From NCBI RefSeq assembly GCF_006715095.1, contig NZ_VFMO01000001.1:1612001-1676000 (forward strand): a stretch of 64,000 nt of DNA, read 5' to 3'. The notes beneath the pieces were generated by a model. It was given only the letters and a program-made list of their open reading frames with translations. It ran no database searches and was not told where the DNA came from. A program made the position numbers and the translations under genes. Shown here in pieces: positions 679 to 40,706 of this stretch (position 1 is its first letter; every line of letters begins with the position of its first letter). This stretch comes from Yimella lutea. GTDB taxonomy: Bacteria > Actinomycetota > Actinomycetes > Actinomycetales > Dermatophilaceae.

Positions 679-714
679 ATGCATCGCCTGCTTCTGCTTC
701 GAACGCCGCGCTGA
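679..714 (+). CDS. Putative leuS leader peptide (MHRLLLLRTPR)
   Basis: An 11-codon ORF upstream of leuS reads M-H-R-L-L-L-L-R-T-P-R-stop, with four consecutive Leu codons (CTG CTT CTG CTT). It is followed at once by a 10-bp perfect hairpin and then a terminator-like hairpin, the layout of ribosome-mediated attenuation. Leader peptides before leuS have been predicted in some Streptomyces, so the mechanism has precedent in the phylum. No clear Shine-Dalgarno is seen. A TATTCT hexamer at 667-672 could be a -10 element that would place the transcript start close to this ATG (a leaderless leader). The peptide itself is probably only a sensor of charged Leu-tRNA. Confidence 0.65.
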   Translation: MHRLLLLRTPR

Positions 715-770
715 ACAGACCGGACCTCAGCGCGGCCGCCCCTTGCCTGATGAGCGAGGGGCTTCTTGTT
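705..770 (+). promoter_or_regulatory. Transcription attenuator of leuS
   Basis: Two hairpins lie between the leader peptide and leuS. The first pairs GCCGCGCTGA (705-714, covering the leader stop codon) with TCAGCGCGGC (727-736), a perfect 10-bp stem. The second pairs GCCCCTTGC (738-746) with GCGAGGGGC (754-762), 9 bp with one G-U pair and loop CTGATGA, followed by TTCTTGTT, so it resembles an intrinsic terminator. A ribosome stalled on the Leu codons should block the first stem, free 727-736 and change folding of the terminator. I did not find a fully convincing antiterminator partner by eye. Confidence 0.6.
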
Positions 771-837
771 GGCACGGTTCGGTGCCGCAGAACGCGACAC
801 GGCAGACAACGAGCAGACGAAACGACGTGAGGGCACC

Positions 838-3708
838 ATGAGCGACAGCAATCAGAGCGACACCCCGAAGTTCCGGTACACCGCGCAGACCGCCGGCGAG
901 ATCGAACGCCGCTGGCAGGACCGGTGGGAGGAGCAGGGCACCTTCCAGGCGCCTAACCCGAGCGGCCCGTGGGCCGACCCGTCCGCCGACGGCAAGCAGA
1001 AGTACTTCCTGCAGGACATGTTCCCCTACCCCAGCGGCGCGGGCCTGCACGTCGGCCACCCGCTGGGCTTCATCGCGACCGACGTCTTCGCGCGCTACCA
1101 GCGCATGACCGGCAAGAACGTGCTGTACACGATGGGCTTCGACGCCTTCGGCCTGCCGGCCGAGCAGTACGCGGTGCAGACCGGCCAGCACCCGCGCAAG
1201 ACCACCGAGGACAACATCGTCACCTACCGCCGACAGCTGCGGCAGCTGGGGTTGTCGCACGATCTGCGCCGCTCGTTCGCGACGATCGATCCCGAGTACT
1301 ACAAGTGGACGCAGTGGATCTTCCTGCGCATCTACAACTCCTGGCACGACGAGCGCGCGGGCAAGGCCCGACCGATCGAGGACCTGGTCTCGGCCTACGA
1401 AAGCGGTGAAATCGCCACCCCGACCGGTGCGGCCTGGGCCGACCTGTCGGACACCGAGCGCATCGCAGCCGTCGACGCACGCCGTCTGGCGTACAAGAAG
1501 GAGGTGCCGGTCAACTGGGCGCCCGGTCTGGGCACCGTCGTCGCCAACGAGGAGGTCACCAACGAGGGCCTGACCGAACGCGGCGACATGCCGGTCTTCC
1601 GGCGCAGCCTGTCGCAATGGATGATGCGCATCACGGCGTACGCCGACCGCCTGATCGACGACCTGGACCGGCTGGACTGGCCCGAGTCGATCAAGGCCAT
1701 GCAGCGCAACTGGATCGGGCGCTCGCAGGGTGCGGCCCTGCGCTTCCCGGTCAACGCCATCGACGCGTCCATCGAAGTGTTCACCACGCGTCCGGACACC
1801 ATCTTCGGCGCCACCTTCATGGTGCTGGCCCCCGAACACCCGTTGGTCGACGCGATGACCCCGACGACGTGGCCCGAGGGCACCAAGCAGGCCTGGACCG
1901 GCGGCCACGGCGATCCGCGCACCGCGGTCGCCGACTACCGGCTGGCCGCCTCGCGCAAGAGCGAGGTCGAGCGGCAGGCCGACGAGAAGACCAAGACCGG
2001 AGTGTTCACCGGCACGTTCGCGACCAACCCGGTGACCGGGCGGCCGGTGCCGGTGTTCATCGCCGACTACGTGCTGATGGGTTATGGCACCGGCGCGATC
2101 ATGGCCGTGCCCGGTCAGGACGAGCGCGACTGGGCTTACGCGTCCGCGTTCGACCTGCCGATCGTGCGTACCGTGCAGCCGTCCGACGGTCATCCCGACG
2201 ACCAGCCTTTCACCGGGGACGGCGCGGCGATCAACTCTGCCAACGAGCGAATCTCCTTGGACGGCTTGGGAGTAGCCGACGCCAAAGCGAAGATCATCCA
2301 GTTCGTCGAAGCCGAGGGCATCGGCAACGGCACGATCAACTACAAGCTGCGCGACTGGCTGTTCAGCCGGCAGCGCTACTGGGGCGAGCCCTTCCCGATC
2401 GTGTACGACGAGTCCGGTGCGGCGCACTCGGTGCCGGAGTCGATGCTGCCGGTGCAGTTGCCCGAGGTCGCCGACTACTCGCCCAAGACCTACGAACCGG
2501 ACGACAAGGACTCCATGCCCGAGTCGCCGCTGTCGCGCGCGGCTGAGTGGGTCAACGTCGAGCTGGACCTGGGTGACGGACCGAAGACCTACCGCCGCGA
2601 AACCGACACGATGCCCAACTGGGCCGGATCCTGTTGGTACGAAATGCGATACACCGACCCGGAGAACACCGAGCGCTTCGTCGACCGCGAGTGCGAGGAG
2701 TACTGGATGGGTCCCGGGCGCGGCGCGGGCGAGGGCAGGCCGAACGACACCGGTGGCGTCGACCTGTACGTCGGTGGCGTCGAACACGCGGTGCTGCACC
2801 TGCTGTACGCCCGCTTCTGGCACAAGGTTTTGTTCGACCTGGGCGAGATCACGTCCGAGGAACCGTTCCGCCGTCTGTTCAACCAGGGCTACGTGCAGGC
2901 GTACGCGTTCCGCGACCACCGCGGCCAGCCGGTCCCAGCAGCCGAGGTGCAGGAGACGACCGACGCCGACGGCACGACCTACACCTGGAACGGACAGGTC
3001 GTCACCCGCGAGTACGGGAAGATGGGCAAGTCGCTGAAGAACGTCGTCACGCCCGACGAGATGTGCGACCAGTACGGCGCCGACACCTTCCGCATCTATG
3101 AGATGTCGATGGGTCCGCTGGACCAGTCGCGTCCGTGGGAGACGCGTGCGGTCGTCGGGGCGCAGCGCTTCCTGCAGCGGCTGTGGCGCAATGTCGTCGA
3201 CGAGGAGACCGGGCAGGTGCGGGTCGTCGACGGTGAACCGGACGAGGCGACGAAACGCTTGCTGCACAAGACGATCGACGGCGTCGGCCGCGACTACTCG
3301 CAGCTGAGCTACAACACTGCGGTCGCCAAGCTGATCGAACTGAACAACGCACTGACCAAGCTGGACGACGTGCCGCGTGCGGTGGTCGAGTCGCTGGTGC
3401 AGATGGTTTCACCGATGGCCCCGCACATCGCCGAGGAACTGTGGCAGCGCCTGGGCCATACCTCGACGATCACGTTCGAGCCGTTCCCGCAGGCCGACCC
3501 GGCGTTGCTGGTCGACGACACCGTCACCTGTGTCGTGCAGGTGCTGGGCAAGGTCCGCGACCGGCTGGAGGTCGCGGCCGATGTCAGTGACGCCGACCTC
3601 GAAGCGGCCGCGCTGGCGAGCGACCGTGTACGAGCGGCCATGGGGGACAAGCAGGTTCGCAAGGTCATCGTGCGGGCCCCGAAGCTGGTCAACGTCGTCG
3701 TCGGATGA
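838..3708 (+). CDS. leuS: Leucyl-tRNA synthetase
   Basis: Class I aminoacyl-tRNA synthetase that charges tRNA-Leu in the cytoplasm. The 956-residue protein carries the HIGH signature as HVGH (about 71-74, after PYPSGAG), a large CP1 editing domain with TTRPDT at about 316-321 and GQDERD at about 427-432, and the KMSKS loop as KMGKS at 728-732. A C-terminal anticodon-binding domain follows. The ATG at 838 was chosen over upstream in-frame codons because it is preceded by GTGAGGG and because the upstream region holds the attenuator, whose terminator would otherwise be inside the coding sequence. Expression is probably controlled by leucine supply through the leader peptide. Confidence 0.96.
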
Positions 3709-27404: not shown

Positions 27405-27524
27405 CGTCCGCGCTTGCCGGGCGGCGATCTGCACCGTCCGGCCAGGTCTTCACCCGGGGCACCCCACCGCGGTGGAGGGTTGCCGGCCAGCGAGCCGGGG
27501 CTTGTCGCTGACGCTCATGACCTG
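27405..27524 (-). promoter_or_regulatory. SAM-IV riboswitch upstream of metY
   Basis: On the minus strand the RNA holds CAAGCCCCGGCTCGCTGG, GGCAACCCTCC and GGGGTGCCCCGGGTGA in order, the conserved core of the actinobacterial SAM-IV aptamer. The closing stem P1 pairs CAGGTC (plus-strand 27519-27524) with GACCTG (27443-27448). Sequence downstream of P1 (to about 27405) would supply the extra SAM-IV elements. It should lower metY expression when S-adenosylmethionine is plentiful. End points are approximate. Confidence 0.88.
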
Positions 27525-40573: not shown

Positions 40574-40706
40574 CGCTCCCGTCAAGAGTCCCAGCGTCAA
40601 GCCCCGGCTTGCTGGGCGGCAACCCTCCACCGCGTGGGGTGCCCCGGGTGAGGACAAGGTCCCGACCGTTCGGTCGGCGACAAGCGCGGGGCTGCATGAG
40701 CCCCCG
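40574..40706 (+). promoter_or_regulatory. SAM-IV riboswitch upstream of metX
   Basis: CAAGCCCCGGCTTGCTGG, GGCAACCCTCCACCGCG and GGGGTGCCCCGGGTGA appear in the same order and nearly the same spacing as in the metY copy. GTC near 40581 and GAC near 40653 can close P1. A further hairpin GGGGCTGCATGAGCCCC (about 40689-40705) lies just before the metX ribosome site GGGAGAGG, so SAM binding may act on translation or termination. End points are approximate. Confidence 0.88.

Follow-up and report, generated by a model that had tools for sequence, protein, structure and literature searches.

A leucine leader peptide and two abutting hairpins before leuS in Yimella lutea: a probable attenuator whose design recurs at branched-chain amino acid genes

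The window, a stretch of 64,000 nucleotides from the Yimella lutea genome, carries near its beginning the gene for leucyl-tRNA synthetase, leuS (838-3708, forward strand; TIGR00396 leuS_bact, 908 bits against a cut-off of 548). Upstream of it, on the same strand, a tiny open reading frame for the peptide MHRLLLLRTPR can be read directly from the sequence (679-714, with ATG at 679-681 and a TGA stop at 712-714), and within it four Leu codons, CTG CTT CTG CTT, follow one another (688-699). The stop codon lies in the 5' arm of a hairpin, here called A (705-736, forward strand; 705-714 pairs with 727-736), after which comes a terminator-like hairpin, here called T, with its T-rich tail at 763-770 (738-770, forward strand; 738-746 pairs with 754-762). 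The last codon of the Leu run, CUU at 697-699, is the presumed control codon. It is placed 8 nt before the first base of A, with a 5-nt spacer. A -10 hexamer, TATTCT, is found at 667-672 on the forward strand, and because it ends 6 nt before the ATG, we expect a leaderless transcript that begins at A679. In the sigma-70 consensus scan, no forward-strand promoter was listed near the leader. The divergent neighbour at 575-3 (reverse strand), truncated at the edge of the window, encodes a MenJ-like menaquinone reductase of the geranylgeranyl reductase family. A role of T as terminator for this upstream gene was ruled out by the opposite orientation of the latter.

Both hairpins are stable in folding. 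A has ten Watson-Crick pairs around a 12-nt loop (-18.7 kcal/mol, z -3.9), and T has nine pairs, one of them G-T, followed by TTCTTGTT (-18.7 kcal/mol, z -4.5). They are spaced by 1 nt, and when 702-775 is folded jointly both are present (-38.7 kcal/mol, z -4.0). T is the sole terminator-like site in 560-860, where shuffled sequences would be expected to yield 0.2. The first-pass annotation had described a four-Leu reading frame, a 10-bp hairpin over its stop and a 9-bp hairpin with a T-rich tail, and it had their coordinates right. Rfam gave no family at gathering score near leuS and no T-box at that score anywhere in the window; between 600 and 860 it returned just two weak matches, to unrelated sRNA families (E 2.9 and 4). 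Farther along, the window holds two SAM-IV riboswitches, at 27405-27522 (reverse strand, 106.4 bits) and 40580-40692 (forward strand, 97.2 bits). As a separate observation, made by eye, GGTGCC after T (781-786) and GGCACC immediately ahead of the leuS start (832-837) could form a helix; it is one base shorter in two relatives of the same genus and was not seen by eye in L086 and L088.

The layout recurs widely before leuS. We searched the leuS upstream regions from 143 of the 161 whole genomes with leuS (some of the other 18 had a truncated leuS or one at a contig end), together with 78 of 80 named loci. The two excluded, L052 and L082, start inside leuS, and 26 of the 78 belong to other phyla by title. 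The finder asked for a start codon 5-9 nt after TAnnnT, a reading frame 6-25 codons long that includes one Leu or more, a hairpin spanning or adjoining the stop, and then a terminator-like hairpin about -4 to +40 nt away. Leader, A and T were present at 102 of the 143 whole-genome loci and at 21 of the 78 named loci, 123 loci that are many of them related and include at least two genomes counted twice (L053/L148 and L005/L211), so that percentages drawn from them are not independent trials. None of the 143 regions gave a match in any of three dinucleotide-block shuffles, nor did any on the reverse strand, and among 318 window tiles of 440 bp the only match was the leuS site itself. TAnnnT ends 6-7 nt ahead of the leader start in 120 of the 123 loci, within the 5-9 nt that the finder allowed. 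The leaders of two same-genus relatives, MHCLLLLRLPR (L083) and MHRLLLLRTPR (L084), resemble or equal that of the window, and others include MAGLLLLPQPR from the same family, MRAVRLLLTEPR from Streptomyces goshikiensis and MARSFLLLSRPC from Jidongwangia.

By the finder, 41 of the 143 loci lack the element. Six of them (L112, L162, L169, L179, L186 and L197) match the covariance model R1, and the remaining ones may truly be without it. Among 20 of these 41 loci no T-box was found at gathering score. A riboswitch or T-box in place of the absent leader was considered and rejected, as the same 20 loci gave just two SAM-IV riboswitches, neither of them before leuS. R1 ranks the window site first in the whole genome (E 2.3e-18), a rank to be read with the fact that the window site is in its seed; its independent matches are those in genomes outside the seed.

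Conservation is sharpest in the codon next to A. For this count, codons were anchored on the first GCCG of A with the Leu codons disregarded, which gave 118 in-frame loci. The codon at -8 is a Leu codon in all 118, and it is CTT in 116 of them (CTG and CTC once each). Leu is found at -11 in 112 loci (CTC 58, CTT 40, CTG 14) and at -14 in 96 (CTG 67, CTC 17, CTT 9). CTT makes up 57 of the 1607 Leu codons, or 3.5%, in 35 long reading frames of the window. Two leuS leaders outside this count, L298 and L303, have CTC at -8 instead of CTT. A few leaders are reduced to a single Leu codon, namely MHHEQQLP (L092), MASQQQRLIGPR (L195) and MAVTVHLPGPR (L218), and all three keep just the CTT beside A, which suggests that this codon is the sensor. 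It would be read by tRNA-Leu(GAG), represented by two of the 14 long matches that were typed, out of 75 tRNA matches; one of the two lies inside a dense tRNA cluster. This cluster (G000:C1:2139680-2142780 of the Yimella lutea genome) comprises 23 tRNA matches in 3.1 kb, several of them low-scoring, with extra tRNA-Leu genes of the CAA, CAG and GAG types. It is a tRNA array, perhaps on a mobile element.

The position of the leader stop is similarly restricted, with TGA at +7 in 85 of 120 loci and TAG at -2 in 29 of them. At either position a terminating ribosome would cover the 5' arm of A. The PR or PC ending of the peptide is accordingly a by-product of the hairpin sequence (CCG CGC or CCG TGC), because it is absent where the stop is the TAG at -2.

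Both helices show compensatory changes. They were scored in a sequence-only alignment of 62 rows, in which the 5' arm of T is shifted by one base, partly spoiling the T figures. Standard pairs fill 92.9% of the cells for A, with changes on both sides at five of its ten pairs. For T, 81.1% of the cells are paired, with both-side changes at four of seven counted pairs. Over both helices there are 55 double-changed cells against a mean of 25.1 in shuffles, and none of 500 shuffles was as high, a test weakened by the relatedness of the alignment rows. Sliding the partners by one to three columns lowers every measure, the best slid version having 27 double-changed cells. The first-pass annotation had assigned leader and attenuator to leuS, and had made its case depend on conserved Leu codons and on compensatory changes in both stems of related genomes. 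The recurrence of the layout with empty controls, the Leu codons at -8, -11 and -14, and the covariation of A and T all speak for it. Missing conservation in close relatives, which it had named as a refutation, was thus not observed.

A screen of all column pairs was made on 100 rows from loci that had nearly all been chosen for having the element; a short second match in L197 was dropped, and one row is the ilvB leader of the window genome. Among the 45 highest pairs listed are the A pairs 711-730, 712-729, 714-727 and 709-732 and the T pair 744-756. The very highest pairs arise from the varying position of the -10 box, one high pair lies within the 5' arm of T and reflects its shift, and many lower ones have no pairing sense, including 717-746 and 724-754, which join the A loop to a T arm. 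An antiterminator joining an arm of A to an arm of T, or one in which the Leu codons pair with the 3' arm of T, was sought as a candidate and rejected, as no such pair is among the 45 highest listed and T changed little in masked folds.

Textbook attenuators have one arm common to antiterminator and terminator. In the leuS leaders, A and T abut. The gap between them is -1 to +3 nt in 112 of the 123 loci, though -4 to +40 nt was allowed, and 0-2 nt in 24 folded leuS, leuA and ilvB loci. They share no base in 108 of the 123 loci, the other 15 having an overlap of 1-4 nt, and they fold together at 117 of 119 loci. Masking the first 0-20 nt of A, in imitation of a ribosome, has little effect on T: the mean probability of T stays at 0.93-0.97, at most three of the 119 loci fall below 0.5, and the window site remains at 0.99. 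At the stage when only the 5' arm of T has been made, this arm is paired upstream for 0.09-0.31 of the time on average; this pairing exceeds 0.5 in one of 119 loci when A is free and in 22 of 119 when 12 nt of A are masked. The co-folding, the lack of overlap and the persistence of T under masking therefore argue that A is not a classical antiterminator that takes an arm of T. The exclusive pairing of classical trp-type attenuators was not found, either in the folds of 119 loci or in the overlaps of 123, and by this test the leuS leader is not a classical attenuator. The earlier description of the site as the full layout of attenuation, in the textbook sense, is thus not supported. The contact between A and T is conserved without shared bases, which suggests that the contact itself matters.

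A possible extra helix may form in close relatives. The 3' part of the A loop, ACCGGACC (719-726, forward strand), can pair with GGTTCGGT (776-783, forward strand), with p 0.005 for the window and p of 0.05 or less in four of 21 close relatives and five of 99 other loci; swapping the partners between loci scores as high as the loci's own partners. GTCCG follows T in 22 of 43 loci with CGGAC in the A loop against 7 of 76 without it, the loci being related. In 15 close relatives picked for alignment, all rows show, by eye, a 5-bp core of this helix, which is double-changed once (L092) and contains G-U in two rows (L001 and L083), in an alignment whose rows the aligner had shifted. The core is missing in L085, L132, L134 and L135 of the 21 close relatives.

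The design is not confined to leuS. In a phylum-wide sample of 296 genomes R1 has matches in 24, and in a class-wide sample of 295 it has them in 153. The phylum-wide matches fall at 25 places, 20 of them before leuS, two before leuA and three before ilvB. When 20 of the weaker class-wide matches were taken for gene identification, the genes behind them were cimA (12), ilvB (4), leuS (3) and an ilvA-like gene (1). Ten of these proteins were checked with NCBIfam, where the best names for the truncated pieces were citramalate synthase, acetolactate synthase and threonine or serine dehydratase. These members before ilvB, leuA, cimA and the ilvA-like gene, like the near-invariant CUU register, had escaped the first-pass annotation.

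Across these genes, the control codon varies with the pathway, and its third base is nearly always U, as indicated by the codon counts in a sequence-only alignment, A4. Its 32 rows consist of 13 leuS loci and 19 of the 25 loci L226, L247-L250 and L295-L314 (L248, L298, L301, L303, L304 and L308 were left out). In it, the control codon is CTT in all 13 leuS leaders, ATT in nine of ten cimA leaders (ATC in the other), GTT (3), CTT (2) or ATT (2) before ilvB, ATT before the ilvA-like gene and CTT before leuA. By eye, the cimA leader with ATC (L305), as well as L308, has an ATT 2 nt further upstream.

A second model, R2, matches 147 of 196 genomes of the class, often two or three times each. With it, the genome of the window carries the design at leuS, ilvB and cimA, of which just the cimA match is independent, the leuS and ilvB leaders being in the R2 seed. 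The ilvB leader is MARILVLPKRVS, with CTT at -8 (G000:C1:1446261-1446372, L226). The cimA leader is MGHAVTSALIIC, with ATT at -8 (G000:C1:1452715-1452818, L315), and its gene scores above the TIGR00977 cut-off. A leuA leader, MSLLLGCRGEAS (G000:C1:2726925-2727015, L316), is a weak R2 match of 28.5 bits; it has hairpins, lacks an abutting T-tailed terminator and resembles the leuA leader of Streptomyces lividans. At a few loci, a leuS of another lineage stands behind the same leader and hairpins (L246, from genome G040 of the same order, and L229, L230 and L244 from another class). The LeuS proteins of L246 and L229 have 41% identity to that of the window over the N-terminal half. It is as if the leader stayed in place, or moved along, when leuS was replaced.

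T-box leaders, too, control tRNA-synthetase genes by tRNA charging. They bind the tRNA directly and have no leader peptide. The closest relatives of the window site are instead the leuS attenuators predicted in Streptomyces avermitilis and Streptomyces coelicolor, which the passages of Seliverstov et al. 2005 that treat them call classical (PMC1262725). A 2021 reannotation of S. lividans describes, in its part on leader peptides, a leaderless leuL2, MRAVRLLLSEPR, before leuS, with a hairpin and a U stretch (PMC8079986). The Streptomyces family, as these passages present it, shares with our site the gene, the Leu-run leader, the PR* ending and a hairpin with a U stretch. At the window site we find the same position, a Leu leader, a hairpin over the stop and an adjacent terminator, and by its anatomy the leader very probably belongs to this family. 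Moreover, the leuS leaders matched by R1 include some with MRAVRLLLSEPR or a nearly identical peptide, and these too fold as A abutting T. The two descriptions differ in one respect, as the Streptomyces attenuator was called classical in the 2005 text (PMC1262725), whereas A and T share no bases in most of our loci. Leader, hairpins and leaderless start are thus not new in kind, because passages of PMC1262725 and PMC8079986 already have them. In particular, the leaderless leader that the first-pass annotation had counted as a new point was preceded by the S. lividans report.

The nearest precedent for the hairpin arrangement is ilvBNC of Corynebacterium glutamicum, whose hairpins compete for a shared GCC according to the relevant passages of PMC11857589. 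There and at ilvB-II, as far as the passages describe, the common ground is a branched-chain leader with CUU among the control codons, adjacent antiterminator and terminator hairpins, and a transcript start one nucleotide from the leader start codon (PMC11857589 and PMC10272879). The C. glutamicum ilvBNC hairpins are described as sharing the GCC, and a third hairpin is reported there, whereas A and T usually share nothing; no hairpin in the role of that third one was found here. The LEU element before actinobacterial leuA also has a Leu leader, for which the passages of PMC1262725 propose a pseudoknot and a helix between the Leu codons and the Shine-Dalgarno box. In the S. coelicolor ilvB leader, the same passages state, substitution of candidate regulatory codons left regulation unchanged. 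In the passages, titles and abstract openings of the open papers, we found no mention of the codon register, the link between codon and pathway, the cimA and ilvA-like members or the absence of shared bases, and no title or abstract start among the matches listed from the open literature concerned attenuation of cimA.

The site thus has a short leader with the codons of the pathway and a predicted intrinsic terminator between leader and gene, and it is very probably a real leucine attenuator. Specifically, we think it likely that leuS transcription is controlled here by ribosome-mediated attenuation in response to charged tRNA-Leu, with tRNA-Leu(GAG) as the main species sensed. As we picture it, the leuS transcript would start at or beside the AUG, and a ribosome would directly translate the 11-codon leader. 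With ample Leu-tRNA, this ribosome would reach the stop codon, cover and open the 5' arm of A, and T could then form in the RNA exit channel and end transcription. When Leu-tRNA is short, the ribosome would wait at the Leu codons, chiefly at the CUU ending 5 nt before A, and A would stay closed. Only one base separates closed A from the foot of T, and the polymerase would be unable to take in the basal pairs of T beside a rigid helix; T would fail, and leuS would be transcribed. The stop position argues for this direction of the response, as a finishing ribosome would open A and a waiting one would leave it closed. CUU with its 5-nt spacer may be about the last codon at which A can still close.

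Several observations tell against this abutment model. A and T fold together at nearly all loci and T persists when A is masked, so that the decisive step would have to be steric. Apart from the six that match R1, the leuS loci missed by the finder may lack the element; some leuS leaders have CTC at -8 or a single Leu codon; and the codon substitutions in the S. coelicolor ilvB leader were reported to be without effect (PMC1262725). Other readings also have to be weighed. In a classical trp-type arrangement, a 2:3 antiterminator and a 3:4 terminator would share an arm, the ribosome position would decide between them, and A would be the 1:2 or the 2:3 hairpin. The name given to the two Streptomyces leuS attenuators in the 2005 text (PMC1262725) and the adjoining hairpins of C. 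glutamicum ilvBNC, whose shared GCC trinucleotide has mutational support in the passages of PMC11857589, favor such a scheme. So do the 15 loci with a 1-4 nt overlap and the 22 of 119 in which the 5' arm of T pairs upstream early with 12 nt of A masked, against one when unmasked. However, this early pairing appears with A open, a state that does not suit an antiterminator acting under starvation. Moreover, 108 of 123 loci show no overlap, A and T coexist at nearly all folded loci, T persists under every mask (0.99 in the window), and the 45 highest covarying pairs listed link no A arm to a T arm. We therefore regard the classical scheme as unlikely.

With the usual toeprint footprint, a ribosome waiting at CUU would cover about 5 nt of A, a point against the abutment model. 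This geometry, at the -8 register, could fit the idea that A stacked on T strengthens termination, and that the ribosome at CUU opens the foot of A and thereby weakens T. Zero-spaced hairpins could indeed stack, and masking A lowers the probability of T by more than 0.2 in four of 119 loci and raises it in one. However, T is stable without A in the window, and the stop places a finishing ribosome over the 5' arm of A in 114 of 120 loci; such a ribosome would make T weaker when Leu-tRNA is ample, contrary to the direction needed, and we find this helper role for A rather improbable. A could also pace the RNA polymerase, with read-through depending on Rho or on the timing of a following ribosome rather than on T alone. 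In general, a hairpin that forms directly behind the polymerase can make it pause. T here resembles a complete intrinsic terminator, conserved with its T tail, which speaks against such pacing. The first hairpin of C. glutamicum ilvBNC has been given a pausing role in the passages of PMC11857589, and we hold pacing at our site to be similarly improbable. That the leader is a chance or decayed one without function in Yimella lutea is very improbable. A few relatives did lose most Leu codons (L092 and L195), and the finder missed the element at 41 of 143 loci, six of which match R1; yet the window copy has the conserved parts, both same-genus relatives carry the element, and the finder controls were empty.

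Beyond leuS, the abutment model leads us to a broader and more tentative proposal, which we put forward as a possibility on somewhat less than even terms. Actinobacteria may use one shared attenuator design for branched-chain supply and leucine charging, in which the last sensing codon ends in U (CUU, AUU or GUU by pathway) and lies at a fixed 8 nt before a hairpin that abuts a non-overlapping intrinsic terminator, and in which the terminator would be blocked sterically in the exit channel, without base-pair exchange. The design poses a physical question, namely whether an intrinsic terminator can be disabled by a hairpin with which it has no base in common. If the proposal is right, ribosome-mediated attenuation would extend to cimA, and there would be a reason for these leaders to end with a codon seldom used in the surrounding genes. 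Furthermore, a U-ending codon, a 5-nt spacer, a hairpin and a gapless terminator would together predict the controlling amino acid in many members of a phylum that is industrially and medically important.
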